From contig NZ_FOQL01000003.1 of NCBI RefSeq assembly GCF_900113745.1, forward strand, positions 124,001-188,000: a stretch of 64,000 nt of DNA, in the 5' to 3' direction. Below the pieces are notes generated by a model. It saw only the letters and a list, made by a program, of their open reading frames with translations, did not search any database and had not been told where the DNA came from. Origin of the DNA: Pseudomonas guineae (lineage in GTDB: Bacteria; Pseudomonadota; Gammaproteobacteria; Pseudomonadales; Pseudomonadaceae). The position numbers and the translations under genes were made by a program. Shown in pieces: positions 54,647 to 64,000 of this stretch (the stretch's first letter is position 1; each line of letters begins with the position of its first letter).

Positions 54647-55182
54647 TATTCGATGACTGGTGCTAATTGGTCGCTAGACGAACTTTAGCGAATCGTAGCA
54701 TTATAACTCAGGTGATGCACACACCATGCTCCGCCGATTTTAAATAACAAGTATGGCTTGAGCGCATAGTTATTATTTCGGCTCCGCAAATACTTTAATA
54801 CATTAACTATTTTTTTGGAGAAATGATTAAACCCAACTTGCTATGAGAGCCTTATGAGTCAGCTTATTTTAAATAAAACTTCAGAAACTATATTTTTAGA
54901 CAGCCTAAAAATATAGCTTTTGCCTACCCTACCTGGCATCAACCTATAGTTGAAAATGCCGTGAAAGATTCTAGGGATTTTTTTGAAAAAATGGATTTAT
55001 GAGCGATGAAATCGCCATTTATATATTACCTGGCGCATTTGAACTGCCGTTGCACGTCAAAAAGCTCGCACAAATAGGAGAGTTTGATGCAATCATTGCA
55101 TCAAATGCAGATCATCAAAGTATCGACTAAGTTAAGGACGTATTCAGAATACGACAGATCTTATTTGCTCACTCAGCGCACT
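54647..55182. other. AT-rich gap holding a decayed gene
   Basis: This 536-base stretch is markedly richer in A and T than its neighbours and has no intact gene. Its first 200 bases should hold the araC promoter, and 54854-55130 is the ribH remnant. A perfect palindrome CGTATTC-A-GAATACG lies at 55139-55153. Confidence 0.6.
54854..55130 (+). pseudogene. Remnant of a lumazine synthase (ribH-like) gene
   Basis: Three consecutive frames give pieces of one protein. ATG 54854 encodes MSQLILNKTSETIFLDSLK and then stops. One frame over continues NIAFAYPTWHQPIVENAVKD to FFEKMDL and a TGA at 55000. A third frame gives SDEIAIYILPGAFELPLHVKK and LAQIGEFDAIIAS before ending at 55128-55130. The pattern W-H-x-x-I-V, then PGAFELPLHVKKLAxxGxFDAI, is the lumazine synthase core, closest in style to RibH2. 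The segment with the catalytic His and the C-terminal third are missing. It is a clear pseudogene, divergent from the AraC gene. Confidence 0.78.
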
Positions 55183-55923
55183 TTAGGTGTTTAAAGTAAC
55201 GCGCCCAAGACCGGTAAACTCAACTTCAACCCTCGCCCCCGCTGGTGCCCAATAAATACCGGTCCAGCTACCTGTAGCGACTATATCCCCGGCACGTAAT
55301 GGATTGCCCTGCGCTACGGCATGCTTTGCTAGCCAAGGCAGCGAGTTTAGCGGCTGAGCAAACGGGTGAGTGCCGATGTTATGAATCTGCATTACACCGT
55401 TCACTCGAACTTCAGCCGTTTGTTTTGACCAGTCAGGCTTATGTTCAAACGTAAAGGGCTGTCCCGTAATCAGGGCACGGTTTAACTGTTGATCAGCCAA
55501 GCGCAATAGCGCTGAAGCTTGCTCAGCATGCACCCAACGCGTATCGCATAACTCGATAGCTGGAAGCCATTCTTCAACCGCTTTGTATGCAGCGGCCATG
55601 TCAGTATGTTCATCGAGGTCGCAACCCAAGCGCACTAACAATTCGCTCTCAATACCAAAGGCATGACAATAGCCGGGCGGCACCTGCCAACCTGACATGT
55701 GAATAGCCTTAGACGGTACACCAGAGGCGCTGATAAACGTGTTCGGAGCGCCACCTAGTTTCCAAGCTTGAGCAGGGCCGTCTGCAAACCATCCAAGCGC
55801 TTGCGCTACGTGTTGCTGCACGGCATAAGCTTGGGCTTCATTTGCGAGGACCAAGCCTTGATGCGACTGGCGCTCACCGCTGCGCCAACTGCGAATTAAG
55901 CACTCGACAACTTGCTCAACCAT
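55183..55923 (-). CDS. FAH/2-keto-4-pentenoate hydratase-like protein
   Basis: The start at 55923 (MVEQVVECLIRSW) gives 246 residues; the longer frame upstream overlaps the hydantoinase gene. The protein reads as a MhpD-type member of the fumarylacetoacetase superfamily (GIESELLVRLGCDL metal region, PAIELCDTRW, and GDIVATGSWTGIYWAPAGARVEV near the end). Members hydrate, decarboxylate or hydrolyse 2-keto acids. It begins two bases after the hydantoinase stop, so the two are translationally coupled. The reaction here is unknown. Confidence 0.75.
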   Translation of the reverse strand: MVEQVVECLIRSWRSGERQSHQGLVLANEAQAYAVQQHVAQALGWFADGPAQAWKLGGAPNTFISASGVPSKAIHMSGWQVPPGYCHAFGIESELLVRLGCDLDEHTDMAAAYKAVEEWLPAIELCDTRWVHAEQASALLRLADQQLNRALITGQPFTFEHKPDWSKQTAEVRVNGVMQIHNIGTHPFAQPLNSLPWLAKHAVAQGNPLRAGDIVATGSWTGIYWAPAGARVEVEFTGLGRVTLNT

Positions 55924-55925
55924 GC

Positions 55926-57362
55926 TCACAGCGGTAACTCCGTCTTGCGTCTGCGCTTTTGCGCCGGAACCGGTCGCTGACAAGCCAGAAACTGACCACG
56001 CCCTGCTGCGCCACGTGGCTGGCCATCCCACACCACCTCGCCGCGTGACAAGGTCATGGCTGGCCACGCGCTCAGTTGCATACCGGCATACGGCGTGTAA
56101 TCGACGTTGTGATGGAGCATTTGATTACTCAGTTCGACCGTTTGGCCTTCATCCCAAATCACTAAGTCTGCATCTGAGCCAATCGCGATGCTGCCTTTGC
56201 GTGGGTATAAACCGTACATTTTTGCGGCGTTGCTCGCCGTCAGCGCGACAAAGCTTTGTGCACTGATTCGCCCGCTTCGCACACCCTCGGACCAGAGCAG
56301 GGCCATGCGTGTTTCGACCCCGGGAATGCCGTTGGCGATCTGGTCGAACGACACATCTTCGCCATGGGCTTTCTTACCGTCTGGGCCGTTAAAGCGAAAA
56401 GGCGCGTGGTCAGATGAGAAAATCTCAAACGAGCCATTTTCCAACCCGTCCCAGATCACTTGTTGATTAGCCGTATCTCGTGGTGGCGGGCTACAAATGC
56501 ATTTTGCACCTTCAAAGCTGTCATCGCAGCCAAGCGAGTCAGCCGTCAAAAATAAATATTGGGGACAGGTTTCAGCGTACACCTTCAGGCCTTGAGTTTG
56601 CGCCCGACGAATTTGCTCAAGCGCTTCTCGGCCCGAGACGTGCACAATCAAAATCGGTACATCCACCAACTCAGCTAAGGCAATGGCACGATGAGTCGCC
56701 TCACGCTCCACCAACATCGGCCGTGAGTTGGCGTGATATTTCGGCGCACTTAAACCAGCGGCTAACAAGCGTTCAGTCAGCCAAGCAATGCAGTCGCTGT
56801 TTTCAGCATGGAGCATGACCATCGCACCTTCACGCCGAGCAACTGACAGGGTTTCTAGAATTTCACGATCCCCCAGCTTGAGAGCATCGTAGGTCATGTA
56901 GATTTTGAACGAGGTGTAGCCCTCAGCGATTAACGCGGGTAACTCTTCACGCAGCACTTGCGGCGTCGGGTCTGTGACGATCAAGTGGAACGCGTAATCG
57001 ATCACCGGCTTGTTGCCTGCACGCCGGTGATAATCATCCACCGCAGCGCGCAACGTTTCACCCTTCTGCTGGCAGGCAAACGGGATCACCGTCGTGGTAC
57101 CGCCACAAGCTGCCGAAACCGTACCACTGAAGAAGTCATCGGCCATTAGCGAGCCATCGCCGGTCGGTTGATCAAAATGCACGTGACTGTCGATACCGCC
57201 CGGCGTGACATGACGGCCAGCTGCGTCGATCTCTTTCAGGCCCTGGGACAAGTCCAACGCTAGCGCTGCGATGCGCCCATCACGAATACCAATATCGCTG
57301 GTAAATGTGTCAGCCGCGGTAACCACGCGAGCATTGCGAATGACCGTATCGAAAGGTTGCAT
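55926..57362 (-). CDS. Dihydropyrimidinase / D-hydantoinase family cyclic amidohydrolase
   Basis: The start MQPFDTVIRNARVV (57362) follows GAGG by six bases and gives 479 residues; an ATG five codons upstream lacks spacing. Metal ligands are visible: H60 and H62 (SHVHFD), carboxylated K153 (SFKIYMTYD), H185 (MLHAENSD), H241 (VHVSGREA) and D318 (SSDHAPF). This full set predicts an active binuclear zinc hydrolase opening a hydantoin, dihydropyrimidine or similar cyclic ureide. The surrounding genes do not include pydA/pydX or a beta-ureidopropionase, so a standard pyrimidine pathway is not implied. Confidence 0.87.
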   Translation of the reverse strand: MQPFDTVIRNARVVTAADTFTSDIGIRDGRIAALALDLSQGLKEIDAAGRHVTPGGIDSHVHFDQPTGDGSLMADDFFSGTVSAACGGTTTVIPFACQQKGETLRAAVDDYHRRAGNKPVIDYAFHLIVTDPTPQVLREELPALIAEGYTSFKIYMTYDALKLGDREILETLSVARREGAMVMLHAENSDCIAWLTERLLAAGLSAPKYHANSRPMLVEREATHRAIALAELVDVPILIVHVSGREALEQIRRAQTQGLKVYAETCPQYLFLTADSLGCDDSFEGAKCICSPPPRDTANQQVIWDGLENGSFEIFSSDHAPFRFNGPDGKKAHGEDVSFDQIANGIPGVETRMALLWSEGVRSGRISAQSFVALTASNAAKMYGLYPRKGSIAIGSDADLVIWDEGQTVELSNQMLHHNVDYTPYAGMQLSAWPAMTLSRGEVVWDGQPRGAAGRGQFLACQRPVPAQKRRRKTELPL

Positions 57363-57474
57363 AGTAGGCCTCATCAAACAGGACTTGGCCTCAGCAAGTG
57401 AAGCCGATTGAACCGCAGTAAATGGGCAATTAGCGAGGTGAGGATGCCGTCACCTTGCCAAACTTCAGCGTGTT

Positions 57475-58386
57475 TTAGGCCGAAGCAGCCGCGTCGCGTT
57501 GCAGCCAGGCTTCCGCGATTTGTTCGCGCGTGGCAAACCACACGCCTTCGTGGGCTTGGGCGTACTCAATGAACTTCTTCAATGCGCGTACCCGGCCTGG
57601 ACGGCCAACCATGCGTGGGTGCAGGCCAATGGACATCATGCGTAGGCCGTCTGCGGACTCTTCGTGCAGCACCTCAAAACTTTCTTTCATGTACTCAAGG
57701 AAGTCTGACGCTTGCGATAAACCGGGCGAGTTCCAGTAGCGAAAGTCATTGACGTCGCTGGTGTACGGCACCACTAAGTGGCGCTTGCCTTCGACCTCAA
57801 CAAAGTACGGAACGTCATCGTTGTAGGCGTCGGAGTCATACAAAAAACCGCCTTCTTCGCAGACCAGCCGACGCGTGCGCACACTGGCTCCATAGCGGCA
57901 ATACCAACCCACTGGGCGCTTACCGCAGGTACGCTCAAATGACTCAACCGCTAAGCGAATATGCTCACGTTCCTGTTCTTCGCTAAGGCGAAATACCTCT
58001 TCCCAGCGATAACCATGGCTGCAAACTTCGTGACCCAAAGTAACCGCCGCTTTAGCAACGTCTGGGTTTTGCTCGAAGGCGACCGCGCAAGCATGAAAGG
58101 TCGCGGGAACATTAGCTTGCTGCAGAATATCGAGAATCCGCCAAATACCGACACGCGAGCCGTATTCATACATCGACTCCATGGCCAAGTTGCGCACGCC
58201 ATCGGGGAATTGATAACTGCCCCATTCGGTCATGCTTTCTTGGTCAGGATCCCCCATCGCCAGTGAGCGTTCGGAGCCTTCCTCGTAGTTGATCACCACA
58301 CTGATAGCCAACCGCGAACCATTGGGCCAAGTGCCTTGCGGGCGTTGCTGGCCATAGCCAACAAGATCTCGAAGGGGTAACGCCAT
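57475..58386 (-). CDS. PuuE-like polysaccharide deacetylase family protein (allantoinase-type)
   Basis: The ATG at 58386 (MALPLRDLVGYG) with AGGAG eight bases before it gives 303 residues. The sequence has INYEEGSERS, GSRVGIWRILDIL, GHEVCSHGYRWEEVF and GLHPRMVGRPGR, patterns shared with Pseudomonas PuuE. PuuE is a cofactor-independent allantoinase of the NodB superfamily. It may therefore open another cyclic ureide or remove an acyl group. No uricase or allantoicase gene is adjacent, so ordinary purine use is not shown. It belongs to the catabolic cluster with the hydantoinase. Confidence 0.78.
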   Translation of the reverse strand: MALPLRDLVGYGQQRPQGTWPNGSRLAISVVINYEEGSERSLAMGDPDQESMTEWGSYQFPDGVRNLAMESMYEYGSRVGIWRILDILQQANVPATFHACAVAFEQNPDVAKAAVTLGHEVCSHGYRWEEVFRLSEEQEREHIRLAVESFERTCGKRPVGWYCRYGASVRTRRLVCEEGGFLYDSDAYNDDVPYFVEVEGKRHLVVPYTSDVNDFRYWNSPGLSQASDFLEYMKESFEVLHEESADGLRMMSIGLHPRMVGRPGRVRALKKFIEYAQAHEGVWFATREQIAEAWLQRDAAASA

Positions 58387-58431
58387 GGGAAACACTCCTA
58401 CAGGTTTGGCAAACTGCTCAGCCGCTCAGGC

Positions 58432-59319
58432 TCAGCAATCGATATCTTTCAATGCTTCATGATCAGGCCCGGTGAACGTTTGGCCATCGCCAAACGCCAA
58501 ACCCATGGCCAATGTTTGGGCAATACAAAACGCGGCAGTGAGCGAGCGAAAACCGAGCAACTCTGCATCGTTTACCTCGATCATGACAGAGGCGCATTGG
58601 CCGACTGGGCTGAGGATGCTATCGGTGATTGCCACAATCGGTGTGCCCGCAGCGACGGCCTGTTCACAAGCATCGATAGTCTCTTGGGCATAAGGCGGGA
58701 AGCTTACGGCGACCAGAACATCATCGCAGTGTAACGCTCCGACCTGCTCGCGCAGGCTGCCGCCTAAACCACTGATATGCACTGCTCGGCGCCCTACTCG
58801 GCTGAGCGCATAGCTCAAATAAGCAGCCATTGGGAAAGAGCGGCGCATGCCCACCACAAACGTGGTCCGGGCTTTTTGCAGCAAGGCAATCGACTGCTCC
58901 AGCGCCTGCACTTGCTCACCTTCAGCCAAGTGTTCAAGCGAGACTATATTGGCTTGGCTGAATGCACTGAGCATGGCCCCAATATCCGTAGGATCATCCA
59001 GTAACTGCTCACCACGATAGTGACGAATACGTTCCTTGAAACTGCCCTGCCCGGCCTTTTCCAGCGGTGCTTTGAAGACTCGCTGGAGGTCGCTAAAGCC
59101 GCCATAACCTAACGCCTGCGCCAAGCGAATAAACGCCGAAGCAGGAATAGCCGAGCGCTTAGCCAATGCCGCTAACGTGTTAAGCGCCACGTCATGTGGG
59201 TGCTCAATCAAATAGTGGGCGGCGTCACGCATACGTGCTGTGAGTTTGTCCTGACCCAGCGCAATCGCGGAGCGCAATTCAACTAGGGTTTGTGGTAGTG
59301 GCATAGGCAGATCGCTCAT
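58432..59319 (-). CDS. RpiR-family regulator (HTH-6 plus SIS domain)
   Basis: The 295-residue protein has an N-terminal HTH_6 (about 15-90, LAALAKRSAIPASAFIRLAQALGYGGFSDLQRVF) and a SIS domain (about 125-260, TTFVVGMRRSFPMAAYLSYAL). SIS domains in this family usually bind phosphosugars, but RpiR proteins near amino acid catabolic genes are also known. It is the likely local regulator. A palindromic AT-rich site at 62891-62906 is its candidate operator. Confidence 0.84.
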   Translation of the reverse strand: MSDLPMPLPQTLVELRSAIALGQDKLTARMRDAAHYLIEHPHDVALNTLAALAKRSAIPASAFIRLAQALGYGGFSDLQRVFKAPLEKAGQGSFKERIRHYRGEQLLDDPTDIGAMLSAFSQANIVSLEHLAEGEQVQALEQSIALLQKARTTFVVGMRRSFPMAAYLSYALSRVGRRAVHISGLGGSLREQVGALHCDDVLVAVSFPPYAQETIDACEQAVAAGTPIVAITDSILSPVGQCASVMIEVNDAELLGFRSLTAAFCIAQTLAMGLAFGDGQTFTGPDHEALKDIDC

Positions 59320-59325
59320 TAAATA

Positions 59326-60573
59326 TCAGGTGTGGCGCAGTTCGGTAATGGCCTCTGCCAAGCAAGCGACTAACCGCGTCATTTCTTCGACGGTGTTGTA
59401 GTGTGCAATCGATACGCGCACCACTCCGCCCTGTTGCGCCAAACCCAATTCTTCGATCAGGTGACGCGCGTAAAAATCGCCAAAGCGGATACCGATACGT
59501 GCCTCATCAATACGCCGCACAATCGCTTCGGACTGTACGCCTTCAACCACAAAACTGATGGTCGGTACTCGGTCACCTTGGGTAACCCGTGGTTTGCCGA
59601 TGATACGAACAGCCGGTGCCTCACGCAGATAAGCCAGCAGCGTTTCAGCCAACAGATCTTCCTGTATTTCAAAGGCATCAAACGCCGCTTGCATCAACTC
59701 ACGCGGGCTGCCTTTAGCGCCAATACGGCGGCCAATATCAAGTAAGTAATCGCTGATACCGATACAGCCATAAGACAGCTCATAGTTGAGATTGCCCGGC
59801 TGTAATTTGTAAGGCAGTACCTCGGCACCAATGAAAAAATGGTTGAGGCTTGGCAACTCCAACAGCAATTCGCGCTTACCCCACAGCACGGCGAAGTGCG
59901 GACCAAATACTTTGTAGAAACTGAACACGTAGTAATCTGCGCCACTGGCCTGAACATCGACCAAGCGATGCGGCGCGTAGGCCACGGCGTCGACGCACAA
60001 CTGCGCGCCAACTGCGTGCGCCCGGCGTGCAACCTCGGCGACAGGGTTAACGCTGCCTAAAATATTCGAGGCGTGAGTCATCGCCACATAACGTGTTTTG
60101 GCGCAGAGTAAAGTATCAAGGTCAGCCAATTCCAACTCTAAGGTTTGCGCATCAACGTGCCATACCCGCAGTACCGCACCGCGCTCTTCGCACAAGCGCT
60201 GCCAAGGGCCAATGTTGGCTTCATGGTCGCTGTGAGTGACGATAATTTCATCACCGGGTTTGATAGACGGCGCAATTGCACGCGTCAGTATTTGCAGCAA
60301 ATGCGTGGTCGAACCGCCCATCACGCACTCTTCAGGGTGATACGCGTTGATCAACTGGGCCACCGACTCCCGCGCTTCTAACACCTTAGCCCCGGCCTGC
60401 ACAGACGGCTGATAAGAAGCCCCCAGCTGCACGGAATGGTTGAGCAAATAGTGGCTGATGCGCTCAGCGACGGGTTTCAGTACCGCCGAACCACCAGCGT
60501 TGTCGAGATAGGCATAGCCGTCGGCCAGAACGGGGAACTGGCTGCGAACGTAATTAATATCGAGCAAAGTCAA
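59326..60573 (-). CDS. Class V aminotransferase / cysteine desulfurase-like PLP enzyme
   Basis: The 415-residue PLP fold-type I protein has a PLP lysine probably in the FSFYKVFGPH stretch (K near residue 217), with AGGSAVLKPVAERISHYLLNH at the start and VSIAHYNTVEEMTRL at the end. The type resembles the TIGR01976 VC1184-like group rather than true IscS/SufS. The start is a TTG at 60573 with GGGAGA seven bases upstream; no ATG is available. Located between the ABC transporter and the RpiR gene, it probably acts on an amino acid intermediate of the cluster (transamination, desulfuration or elimination cannot be told apart). Confidence 0.78.
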   Translation of the reverse strand: MTLLDINYVRSQFPVLADGYAYLDNAGGSAVLKPVAERISHYLLNHSVQLGASYQPSVQAGAKVLEARESVAQLINAYHPEECVMGGSTTHLLQILTRAIAPSIKPGDEIIVTHSDHEANIGPWQRLCEERGAVLRVWHVDAQTLELELADLDTLLCAKTRYVAMTHASNILGSVNPVAEVARRAHAVGAQLCVDAVAYAPHRLVDVQASGADYYVFSFYKVFGPHFAVLWGKRELLLELPSLNHFFIGAEVLPYKLQPGNLNYELSYGCIGISDYLLDIGRRIGAKGSPRELMQAAFDAFEIQEDLLAETLLAYLREAPAVRIIGKPRVTQGDRVPTISFVVEGVQSEAIVRRIDEARIGIRFGDFYARHLIEELGLAQQGGVVRVSIAHYNTVEEMTRLVACLAEAITELRHT

Positions 60574-60591
60574 AATGAGTCTCCCGGGTTA

Positions 60592-61326
60592 TCAGTGATG
60601 CAGGATCGCCTGTAAGAAAGCCTGCGTTCTAGGCTCTTGCGGGGCTGTAAAAAAGTCCTGCGGATTGTTCTGTTCGATGATTCGTCCGTTCTCCATAAAG
60701 ATCACCCGGTCGGCGACTTTGCGGGCAAAACCCATCTCATGTGTGACCACGATCATGGTCACACCAGAGCGCGCCAAGCTCTGCATCACGTCGAGCACTT
60801 CACCGACCATTTCTGGATCCAGGGCTGAAGTGGGTTCATCAAATAGAATGACGCGCGGTTCCATTGCCATGGTCCGGGCGATAGCCACACGCTGCTGTTG
60901 GCCGCCGGATAATTGGCTCGGGTACTTGTCGGCATGTGCTGCCATGCCTACTTTTTCCAATAGTGCTCGGGCTCGCACCTGCGCATCGCGGCGTGACATG
61001 CCCCGTACCCGTACCGGAGCTAGCGCAACGTTAGCCAGCACAGTCAGGTGCGGATACAGATTGAAATTCTGAAACACCATGCCGACCTCACAGCGAATGC
61101 CTGCCAGCTTAGGGCCATTCTCTACGCGTTGATCAGCGACTCGAACGTCACCGTCCTGATACGCCTCCAGCAGGTTGATGCAACGAATCAGCGTGGATTT
61201 ACCCGAACCTGAAGGCCCGAGAATAACCACTACCTCACCTTGCTCAACCGTCATATTGATGTCGCTCAAGGCCTGAAACTGACCGTAGAACTTATTCATG
61301 TGTTCGATTTCAATGACGTTGCTCAT
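60592..61326 (-). CDS. Polar amino acid ABC transporter ATPase
   Basis: The 244-residue protein of the GlnQ/HisP class has Walker [10 protein letters not shown], signature [19 protein letters not shown], Walker [17 protein letters not shown] and switch [10 protein letters not shown]. It overlaps the permease gene by four bases (ATGA). It energises uptake together with the neighbouring permease and binding protein. Confidence 0.9.
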
Positions 61327-62000
61327 GCGCGTTTACCTCCCGCTGCATTGCGCCGCTCCACCCAGCTAACCAACTGCACCATTGGCAATAGCAGCAACAG
61401 ATACATCACCGCCGCACCTACTAGTGGCGTCGGGTTGGCGGACAGCGCTTGGGCTTGGGTCGCCTGTTTAAGCAAGTCCGGCATTGCCACCACGGAAGCC
61501 AGCGCCGTGTCTTTCATCACGTTGATGCAGTTACTGGTCATCGGCGGCATGACGATACGCATTGCTTGCGGCAGAATCACATCACGCATGGTGTTAAAAA
61601 AACTCATGCCTTGAGAAGCCGAAGCTTCAAATTGTCCGCGCGGAATAGCTTCGATACCCGAGCGAAAAATTTCCGCCGAATAGGCACATGACACCAGCGA
61701 CAAGGCTGCAGCGGCGGCCGCGAATGACGACAAGCGAATCCCCACGAACGGTAATGCGTAATAAATCAACACCAGCAGTACTAGCAGCGGAATCGAACGC
61801 ATTACATCGATATACGCTCGCGAAAACCAACGAATCGGGGCGTAACCGTAAAGTCTGAGCATGGCCAGCAGTAAGCCGCCAACCAAGCCGAGAATAATAC
61901 TCACCACGCCCAACAACACCGTCACGCCAAGGCCGCGAAGCATCAGTGGAAACGCATCTACAAATACGTCCCAATTGAAGAATGTGTCTAGCAGCTCCAT
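61323..62000 (-). CDS. Polar amino acid ABC transporter permease
   Basis: The start at 62000 ([20 protein letters not shown]) gives 225 residues; a GTG nine bases upstream overlaps the ribosome site. It has five membrane segments and the coupling region [29 protein letters not shown] (His/Glu/Gln/Arg permease family). It is probably a homodimer, as only one permease gene is present. Confidence 0.88.
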
Positions 62001-62034
62001 AAAAAACACCTTGGTCGTGAGCAGTTAATCGGGA

Positions 62035-62811
62035 TTATTTAGGTACGTCGGTGACCTTAATTGTGCTCGAGTCTGCAGCTGCATCTGCACCGAACCACTT
62101 CTTATGCAGGTCAGCAATCACACCGTCCTTCTTCATATTGGTGATGATGTCGTTAACCTGGGCGCTGTCAGACCAATCTTTAGCGTGCATCAGCGAGTAC
62201 TTTTCGCCGGTCGGAATCCTCGCAACCACTGCGTACTGCGGCTTATCTTTGATGTAATACAGCACCGCAGGAATATCACTGACATAGCCATCTAAGCGGC
62301 CCGAAGCCAGATCGAGCATCGCAGGTGATAACCCTTCGTAGCGCGATACATCCTTGAACTTGTATGCACTCTTATGCTCACCAACCCACATGTCACCGGT
62401 GGAACCGGTATCAACACCAACGACTTTGTCAGCCATGCCGTCTAGGCCCTTGATGCCCGACTTGGTCAGTACTGACAACGACTGGTCACTGTCGTAATAC
62501 GGCTGGGCAAAACCAACCGACTCTAGACGTTTAGGGGTGATGGTGATCGATGAAATAGCGATGTCAGCACGCTTGGATTGCACGGCGCTGAACAGACCGT
62601 TGAAAGGAATATTAACGAACTCGACGCTCTTGCCAGCGCGCTTTGCGACTTCTTTGACGACATCTACTTCGAAGCCAACAATCTCGCCTTCAGCATTCTG
62701 AAACTCCCATGGCACGTTGCCAACGTTAGCACCTACCGTCCAATCAGCGGCCATAGTCGATGTTGAAAATGCAGTGGCCATCGCCATGCCTATGAGTACT
62801 TTAACGTTCAT
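62035..62811 (-). CDS. Amino acid-type periplasmic binding protein
   Basis: The 258-residue protein has a signal peptide cleaved near TMAA (about residue 22) and an SBP_bac_3 domain. The domain includes GNVPWEFQNAEGEIVGFEVDVVKEVAKRAG, SKRADIAISSITITPKRLESVGFAQPYY and DKVVGVDTGSTG. It is the first gene of the transporter operon and the one nearest the candidate operator. The ligand may be the cyclic ureide, its carbamoyl product or an amino acid; sequence does not tell which. Confidence 0.88.
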   Translation of the reverse strand: MNVKVLIGMAMATAFSTSTMAADWTVGANVGNVPWEFQNAEGEIVGFEVDVVKEVAKRAGKSVEFVNIPFNGLFSAVQSKRADIAISSITITPKRLESVGFAQPYYDSDQSLSVLTKSGIKGLDGMADKVVGVDTGSTGDMWVGEHKSAYKFKDVSRYEGLSPAMLDLASGRLDGYVSDIPAVLYYIKDKPQYAVVARIPTGEKYSLMHAKDWSDSAQVNDIITNMKKDGVIADLHKKWFGADAAADSSTIKVTDVPK

Positions 62812-62890: not shown

Positions 62891-62930
62891 TGAATTAAAT
62901 ATTTCAATTTATTTATATAATGAATTAAAT
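62891..62930. promoter_or_regulatory. Candidate RpiR operator with 30-base-spaced repeat
   Basis: TGAATTAAATATTTCA (62891-62906) matches its own reverse complement at 12 of 16 positions. TGAATTAAAT recurs at 62921-62930, exactly 30 bases on (about three helical turns). The pair sits 80-120 bases upstream of the binding-protein gene. TGAA-N8-TTCA dyads are common for RpiR-type regulators, so control by the 58432 gene is a reasonable guess. Confidence 0.45.
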
Positions 62931-63553: not shown

Positions 63554-64000
63554 ATGCCTATTCAGACCGAGCACGACCCGCGGTTGAAACGCACATTAAA
63601 GACGCGACACATCAGTATGTTGGCACTGGGCGGTGTCATAGGCGCTGGGCTTTTTGTAGGCTCTAGCGCTGTTATCGCATCAACCGGCCCGGGTGCTTTT
63701 ATTACCTATGCCATCACCGGGCTCATCGTGGCCCTGGTGATGCGAATGCTGGGTGAAATGGCCGCTGCACACCCCTCAAAAGGGTCGTTCGTCGACTATG
63801 CCCGCATGGCCTTTGGACGCCCAGCAGGCTACATGACCGGTTGGCTCTACTGGTACTTCTGGGTCATCGTGGTTGGCTTTGAAGCGGTCGTCGGCGGCCA
63901 GATCATCAATGGTTGGCTACCGGATATTCCGGTCTGGGTCATCGCGCTTGGCCTGATGATAAGCATGACATTACTCAACTTGATGTCGGTGCACTCCTTC
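63554..64000 (+). CDS. Amino acid permease (APC/AAT family), N-terminal part
   Basis: The frame runs from ATG 63554, with AAGGAGA nine bases before it, past the end of the window, giving 149 residues. It starts MPIQTEHDPRLKRTLKTRH and then has the family signature SMLALGGVIGAGLFVGSSAVI, GPGAFITYAITGLIV, and GEMAAAHPSKGSFVDYARMAFG. This is typical of GabP/AnsP/CycA-type proton symporters with 12 membrane segments. It follows the catabolic cluster in the opposite direction. The substrate cannot be decided from this part. Confidence 0.88.
   Translation, partial: MPIQTEHDPRLKRTLKTRHISMLALGGVIGAGLFVGSSAVIASTGPGAFITYAITGLIVALVMRMLGEMAAAHPSKGSFVDYARMAFGRPAGYMTGWLYWYFWVIVVGFEAVVGGQIINGWLPDIPVWVIALGLMISMTLLNLMSVHSF

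Follow-up and report, generated by a model that had tools for sequence, protein, structure and literature searches.

We analysed a stretch of 64,000 nucleotides from the Pseudomonas guineae genome (hereafter the window, on contig C6 of the 4.15 Mb genome) and found eight genes in a single tight run on its minus strand, from position 62811 to 55183, which likely form one operon. We think it quite possible, if somewhat short of probable, that this operon imports and degrades an α-amino acid with a side chain that either is a cyclic ureide or amide or is turned into one. The core of the system, an amino-acid ATP-binding cassette (ABC) importer, a pyridoxal-phosphate (PLP) enzyme and a ring hydrolase, was found repeatedly, in Pseudomonas, Halomonas, Polaromonas, rhizobia, Rhodobacterales and a Deinococcus, and the smallest recurring unit consists of the importer, the PLP enzyme and a hydantoinase.

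The operon starts with a family 3 solute-binding protein (SBP; 62035–62811, PF00497 at 116 bits), an ABC permease of the polar amino acid family (61323–62009, PF00528 and TIGR01726 above cut-off) and a GlnQ-like ABC ATPase (60592–61326, PRK09493 at 325 bits with a cut-off of 379). These are followed by a VC1184-like class V PLP enzyme (PLP5; 59326–60573, TIGR01976 at 396 bits against a cut-off of 352), an RpiR/MurR-type regulator (RPIR; 58432–59319, with the SIS domain PF01380 and the HTH_6 domain PF01418) and a PuuE-like hydrolase of the polysaccharide-deacetylase fold (PUUE; 57475–58395). The last two genes encode a cyclic amidohydrolase of the PRK13404 subfamily (DHP; 55926–57377, with a likely ATG at 57362) and a fumarylacetoacetate-hydrolase-fold protein distantly resembling 2-keto-4-pentenoate hydratases (FAH; 55183–55923, PF01557 at 59 bits). 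The open reading frame (ORF) listed for FAH from 56067 is over-extended, and its likely ATG at 55923 lies two bases past the end of DHP. A first-pass annotation of this DNA had placed genes of these families here and had described a complete polar amino acid ABC transporter; both statements were borne out, with all eight genes on the minus strand and the transporter consisting of SBP, ATPase and a single permease gene. A single operon is likely because the intergenic gaps range from −4 to 97 bp and the number of terminator-like sites in the region (11 on both strands) is close to that in shuffled sequences (mean 9.5).

To compare neighbourhoods, we used loci found with PUUE alone, of which the best 80 of 296 relatives were kept; the short loci L001–L031 were excluded from the counts, and ORFs were called de novo, with some wrong starts and occasionally a wrong strand. 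In all 43 Pseudomonas loci with a PUUE of at least 80% identity, we found SBP, permease, ATPase, PLP5 and RPIR, while DHP was present in 32 and FAH in 12 (one of them a 125-residue partial match). This linkage of genes in PUUE-selected loci is not due to chance. The co-location in other genomes that had been proposed as a check was thus complete for the importer, PLP5 and RPIR next to PUUE, but only partial for DHP and FAH. Among the 15 loci with a PUUE of 65–80% identity, four, all from Halomonas, harbour the importer and PLP5; a DHP-type gene was found in five, and RPIR or FAH in none. None of the 22 loci below 65% contained the importer and PLP5 at the set identity thresholds, although in one of these (L106) PUUE is accompanied by an AllA-like gene and a weaker amino-acid ABC set.

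The core was also found on plasmids. From 43 plasmid records matching PLP5 we inspected 15, all with at least 45% identity; 311 plasmid records match PUUE, of which one was opened. In 14 of the 15 loci, the genes of an amino-acid ABC system are no more than 4 kb away from PLP5; two of these loci have SBP and permease only, and two have the genes in divergent orientation, beyond an agmatinase gene. A hydantoinase gene, hydA, directly follows PLP5 in 11 of the 15, on plasmids of Polaromonas, two Rhizobium tumorigenes, Rhizobium SL42, Pararhizobium, Ensifer, Aureimonas, Rhodobacter, Alloyangia, Deinococcus psychrotolerans and Microvirga. Five rhizobial plasmids have an operon of importer, PLP5 and hydA alone, with no adjoining FAH. 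The exceptions are a Mesorhizobium locus without a hydantoinase, a D. radiophilus locus without hydantoinase or importer, and two loci from bacteria of Vavilovia and Vicia (L202 and L203), in which amino-acid ABC genes and an annotated agmatinase accompany a PLP5 of 45% identity and a polysaccharide deacetylase that is 27–28% identical to PUUE.

The Polaromonas plasmid pE10SP1 harbours a cluster similar to that of P. guineae, with importer, PLP5 (65%), hydantoinase, RpiR and AllA in one run, but the hydantoinase encoded there shares only 42% identity with DHP. These genes have been published as separate annotations, with no pathway proposed in the available part of that plasmid survey (PMC6015842). 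AllA or an AllA-like gene is found in three PLP5–hydA clusters (L170, L194 and L208): it scores above the subfamily cut-off in L170, is annotated as AllA in the Polaromonas cluster and is an AllA-like ORF in Microvirga. A protein of the Asp/Glu/hydantoin racemase family is encoded within L170 and, on pE10SP1, about 6 kb away from the cluster. Five of the PUUE-selected Pseudomonas loci have, just before DHP, a gene for a class V aminotransferase with a weak resemblance to PhnW (102 bits, cut-off 361).

Next to these neighbourhoods, we determined the presence of the genes in a sample of 398 genomes of the genus. PLP5 (E 1e-150) was found in 28 genomes and DHP (E 1e-180) in 29, with both present in 25, and PLP5 occurred together with FAH in 16. 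Most of this co-occurrence is accounted for by linkage, and the remainder was tested separately. Seven genomes harbour PLP5 without an adjacent DHP, and in four of these DHP is encoded elsewhere, compared to 4 of the 370 genomes without PLP5 (Fisher 2.9e-6, and 7.8e-5 when only one of two sister genomes is counted, in a test that ignores phylogeny). DHP tracks PLP5, in part even when the two genes are not adjacent. As there are PLP5 genomes and core loci without it, DHP is not strictly needed.

DHP scores 803.5 bits on the PRK13404 model (cut-off 647) and retains all six metal ligands; the residues listed in the first-pass annotation (H60, H62, K153, H185, H241 and D318) carry the same numbers if the ATG at 57362 is taken as the start (478 amino acids). 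It shares the full binuclear metal site with bacterial dihydropyrimidinases and D-hydantoinases (PDB 1yny, 5e5c; TIGR02033 at 544 bits), but differs from these in belonging to the PRK13404 subfamily. FAH belongs by profile to the family of the MhpD-type 2-keto-4-pentenoate hydratase (PDB 1sv6), and E92, E94 and E124 are kept, being invariant in five sequences. However, it matches the hydratase models weakly (46.1 bits against a cut-off of 350) and the operon run contains no aromatic ring-cleavage gene. Its predicted structure was too poor for fold comparison (mean predicted local distance difference test score, pLDDT, of 42).

FAH was present in 20 of the 398 genomes. In 20 of 21 FAH loci, DHP lies directly upstream, and the remaining locus is at a contig edge; the gap is 6–18 bp in 19 loci and reaches 176 bp in another, whose DHP match is incomplete. 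In L132, one of the 21 loci, the FAH match contains stop codons. Besides the window-type cluster, the pair occurs with a peptide-type ABC transporter, short-chain dehydrogenase/reductase enzymes and another PuuE-like gene (L133, L134, L135, L137 and L141; L134 also has an AllA-like gene), and with a nitrate/taurine-type transporter (by eye), an AtzA-like amidohydrolase and an arylmalonate-decarboxylase-like protein (L139, L140 and L142; family scan run on members from L140 and L139). In L136, an arylmalonate-decarboxylase-like protein is the only partner. In the phylum sample, FAH was found in 17 genomes besides that of the window; among seven inspected neighbourhoods from six genomes, DHP was directly upstream in L177, near but not adjacent in L178, and absent in five. 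Of 20 plasmid records matching FAH two were opened, and a Klebsiella oxytoca plasmid harbours a cluster resembling that with the nitrate/taurine-type transporter, without the AtzA-like gene. DHP–FAH is a cassette that is also found in other cluster types.

This distribution bears on the possibility that two unrelated modules lie side by side, one consisting of importer, PLP5, RpiR and PUUE and the other a DHP–FAH cassette with a separate function. In a DHP tree of 54 rows, for which the tree tool gave a long-branch warning, 26 rows form one set (support 99/93) that contains all 16 window-type DHPs with FAH, four from peptide-transporter clusters, four from clusters with the nitrate/taurine-type transporter and two from putida loci that lack an intact FAH; the DHPs linked to FAH in L136, L177 and L178 are not part of this set. 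That DHPs of three contexts group together, that DHP–FAH is found in at least three other cluster types and that 11 of 43 core loci lack DHP would all suit unrelated modules. We nevertheless consider this improbable, because 25 genomes are shared between the 28 with PLP5 and the 29 with DHP, four of them with non-adjacent genes, and because hydA is found directly after PLP5 in rhizobia, Rhodobacterales and a Deinococcus.

Some further arrangements were seen around these cassettes. Arylmalonate-decarboxylase/EutA-like proteins are encoded immediately upstream of DHP–FAH in L140 (12101–12907) and L187 (9832–10557). Klebsiella plasmids typed as mobilizable (L187 and L188) carry a DHP–FAH cluster and a hydA–PuuE–AllA–ABC cluster, and the K. 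michiganensis plasmid has an FAH match together with the PuuE-type cluster. In P. arsenicoxydans (L058, 9943–15513), PUUE is separated from a block of class V aminotransferase, DHP and FAH by LysR-type and asparaginase II-like genes (both by eye) together with a second amino-acid ABC transporter.

PLP5, which is conserved with the importer in all the close relatives, was compared to enzymes of solved structure. The best sequence matches were to FGM3, with 288 bits for a full-length alignment, and to UstD (187 bits), followed by cysteine desulfurases with at most 168 bits, and PLP5 is thus closest to C–C lyases and not to aminotransferases. FGM3 carries out a retro-aldol reaction on (S)-γ-hydroxy-arginine (PMC10367076), and UstD makes γ-hydroxy amino acids (PMC10367076, PMC13397446). 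PLP5 shares a PHR...YK stretch with FGM3 (fusaoctaxin pathway, PDB 9x4u) and UstD (PDB 7mkv), and with FGM3 also DHE.N..PW. In contrast to these fungal biosynthetic enzymes, PLP5 is encoded in a bacterial operon with an importer and ring hydrolases. Lys221 aligns with the PLP lysine of the relatives and is invariant in 13 sequences. In a predicted model (mean pLDDT 75), the fold matches SufS-type enzymes and UstD; among the 50 matches listed, the UstD chain had the highest query-normalised template-modelling score (0.82), and 3cai_A reached 0.81 (0.85 when target-normalised).

The NCBI name of TIGR01976, cysteine desulfurase-like, and the resemblance of the permease to a cystine permease (168 bits, cut-off 300) could point to a sulfur operon, in which cystine-type uptake is combined with PLP5 as a cysteine desulfurase-like enzyme. 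This is very improbable. The desulfurase cysteine of the RxGHHC region aligns with Tyr368 of PLP5, which is invariant in the same 13 sequences, and the ring hydrolases would be left without a role. Moreover, the scanned proteins between 51849 and 62811 gave no match to Fe–S or sulfur-assimilation families, apart from the weak desulfurase-family scores of PLP5 itself.

The importer has the hallmarks of polar amino acid uptake, with permease and ATPase next to a family 3 SBP. R95 and D179 of the SBP align with the Arg and Asp of glutamine- and arginine-binding proteins, which we take to be the residues that bind the amino-acid ligand. Upstream of SBP, we found an imperfect palindrome (TGAATTA-N2-TAATTCA-like; 62891–62906, minus strand) as a putative operator, which overlaps a weak σ70-like site (62907–62879); the promoter scan found five sites compared to 7.6 in shuffled sequences. 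With at most three mismatches in the 14 arm positions, the palindrome is present in 43 of 44 regions (the 43 Pseudomonas loci and the window) and in 1.5% of shuffles, a contrast that is inflated because these related regions had also supplied the consensus. Judged by this motif, RpiR probably controls the operon through the palindrome at 62891–62906.

Several other genes were observed around the operon. Upstream of it and on the opposite strand, an APC-type amino-acid permease gene (PF00324) starts at 63554 and continues past the end of the window (63554–64000, plus strand). Just downstream of FAH lies a 43-amino-acid remnant of the lumazine synthase RibH (54999–55127, plus strand; PF00885, E 1.4e-6, profile positions 35–65 of 139), and an IS3-like transposase with an integrase core (PF00665; 50829–51719, plus strand) is located a few kb away.

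Two ring hydrolases in one operon might suggest a standard pyrimidine or purine route. No pydA/pydX or carbamoylase genes and no uricase/UraD/AllA or allantoicase genes were found among the ORFs listed around the cluster. The absence of pydA/pydX, carbamoylase, uricase and allantoicase that had been noted before therefore holds for the cluster but not for the genome as a whole. Contig C10 encodes a carbamoylase-family amidohydrolase, a dihydropyrimidinase, PreA/PydA, a GltD-like protein that from its position would be PydX-like, and a probable permease (by eye), and contig C8 encodes PuuE, UraD and AllA. The C10 dihydropyrimidinase, which adjoins PreA/PydA, reaches 409 bits on the PRK13404 model, compared to 803.5 for the DHP of the window. 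A search for allantoicase in the genome gave no match, but none of 14 controls matched either, so this says nothing on absence. We rejected a complete pyrimidine or ureide route at this operon, as the genes for both are encoded elsewhere, in line with the earlier view that the gene set fits neither standard route: it is an uptake and catabolism operon with two ring hydrolases. Since the pyrimidine genes of C10 and the allantoin genes of C8 form separate sets, the operon is a third ring-opening system of this genome.

PUUE is 48% identical to the PuuE encoded on C8, and is homologous over its full length to PuuE allantoinases (PDB 3cl6 and 1z7a, 328 and 331 bits). An imidase reading was dropped: a P. 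putida cyclic imide hydrolase is reported to group with HxnM, with HpPgdA as the closest solved relative there (PMC9304392), and PUUE scores 331 and 328 bits with the PuuE structures but 77 bits with 3qbu (HpPgdA). The kinship with PuuE raises the possibility of a variant allantoin or ureide scavenging route, with PUUE and DHP acting as allantoinases, PLP5 acting on ureidoglycine and the AllA of the cell finishing the pathway. The AllA and racemase-family genes in related clusters and the PhnW-like class V aminotransferase before DHP in five Pseudomonas loci would fit such a route. Against it, PUUE stays below the curated cut-off for PuuE (TIGR03212, 350.2 bits against 424.6), whereas the true PuuE on C8 reaches 529.6 bits, and 39 positions, each fixed at 95% or more within either clade, set the PUUE clade (60 relatives and the window protein) apart from 28 PuuE-clade sequences. 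In addition, PuuE, UraD and AllA are already encoded on C8, and no AllC-like gene is present in the window cluster; the only AllC/carbamoylase-family protein found in the genome search lies beside the C10 pyrimidine genes. Scavenging of this kind is thus distinctly unlikely.

The first-pass annotation had proposed the uptake of a cyclic ureide or imide and its stepwise opening to a keto acid. A dedicated uptake and ring-opening operon is indeed what we found, but its conserved start is the importer with PLP5. If the free ring compound were imported, it would be opened by DHP and the PuuE-like enzyme, and PLP5 would deaminate or transaminate the product to a keto acid for FAH. This would agree with the two ring hydrolases, with the intact metal site of DHP, with the hydratase-like family of FAH and with the PLP5-less clusters that carry DHP–FAH next to other transporters. 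On the other hand, the importer belongs to the amino-acid type and retains both ligand residues, the five rhizobial plasmids combine importer, PLP5 and hydA without an adjacent FAH, and PLP5 is nearest to C–C lyases and not to aminotransferases. FAH, from which the keto acid had been derived, is moreover the least conserved part (12 of 43 loci) and travels with DHP in other cluster types. Import of a free ureide or imide is therefore unlikely in our view. Because the importer and PLP5 are conserved, an amino acid that yields or carries the ring is the more likely imported compound than a free hydantoin or imide.

The route that we infer for such an amino acid builds on the gene order, families and linkage, the intact metal ligands, the loss of the desulfurase cysteine and the association of DHP with PLP5, all of which were observed directly; its chemistry and substrate are derived from these. 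As the SBP keeps the Arg and Asp and PLP5 needs an amino group, the substrate would be an α-amino acid. Its side chain would be a ureide, because the companions of PLP5 (hydantoinase, PuuE-type, AllA and agmatinase-family enzymes) act on or release urea-like groups. After import by the SBP, permease and ATPase, as suggested by their family and the conserved ligand residues, PLP5 would form an aldimine and, judging from its kinship with FGM3, cleave the β–γ C–C bond to give alanine and a ureide aldehyde or ring. DHP, the PuuE-like enzyme or both could then open a hydantoin-type ring, in keeping with the chemistry of their families, and the open ureide may be converted to a small keto acid and urea by FAH here, or by ureidoglycolate lyase (AllA) in related clusters. 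Our guess for the PLP5 product is 5-hydroxyhydantoin (glyoxylurea), which would suit all variants, since it opens to ureidoglycolate, the substrate of AllA.

The agmatinase-containing clusters L202 and L203 are a candidate operon for γ-hydroxy-arginine, as judged from their gene content. This amino acid has been reported in Vicia and lentil seeds (PMC11854323, PMC6769807), and its presence in Vicia fits the agmatinase variant. Taken more broadly, a PLP-lyase-first route could be widespread. An imported γ-substituted amino acid bearing a ureide would be cleaved to yield alanine together with a cyclic ureide, for example 5-hydroxyhydantoin, the ring would be opened by unrelated hydrolases of the dihydropyrimidinase or PuuE type that are swapped between lineages, AllA or an FAH-fold lyase would finish, and the agmatinase sister operons would do the same with legume γ-hydroxy-arginine. 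We regard this wider scheme as possible but doubtful.

Several observations weigh against the degradation of a ureide-bearing amino acid. Two of the four non-adjacent cases behind the phylogeny-blind co-occurrence test are sister genomes, with clusters about 17 kb apart. At E 1e-180, DHP was missing from three of the 28 PLP5-bearing genomes of the genus, and a genome-wide check of 10 of the 11 named Pseudomonas loci that have the core without an adjacent DHP revealed no DHP at E 1e-100 in seven of the 10. FAH is absent from 31 of the 43 loci. Matches to PLP5 were found in 12 other genomes of the class, and in the eight neighbourhoods inspected, some of them on short contigs, only the 66% homologue (L170) is clustered, whereas homologues with 36–48% identity do not lie in such clusters. 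The proposed base of FGM3, Tyr225, seems to correspond to Phe223 of PLP5, as in UstD (the numbering is offset by one and uncertain), and the retro-aldol step may therefore differ from that of FGM3. In the fold search, SufS entries came first by E-value and FGM3 was not among the 50 matches listed, so that the predicted model leaves lyase and desulfurase unseparated. Finally, no natural amino acid could be named that fits all genes.

Our searches of openly licensed papers found none in which a substrate is given for this gene set, and the prior assignment of homologous clusters that would have spoken against the earlier proposal was likewise not found there. The enzyme families are all known, but we found no description of their combination, or of the likely PLP-first logic, in the literature searched. 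Such genes are labelled in annotations as dihydropyrimidinase, allantoinase PuuE and cysteine desulfurase-like, and their neighbourhoods argue that these labels miss the real job of the enzymes. If our reading is true, the operon would represent a common route for a class of nitrogen-rich amino acids in bacteria, including plant-associated Pseudomonas and rhizobia, for which our searches found no named pathway. FGM3-type C–C cleavage, known from fungal biosynthesis, would then also be a catabolic reaction.

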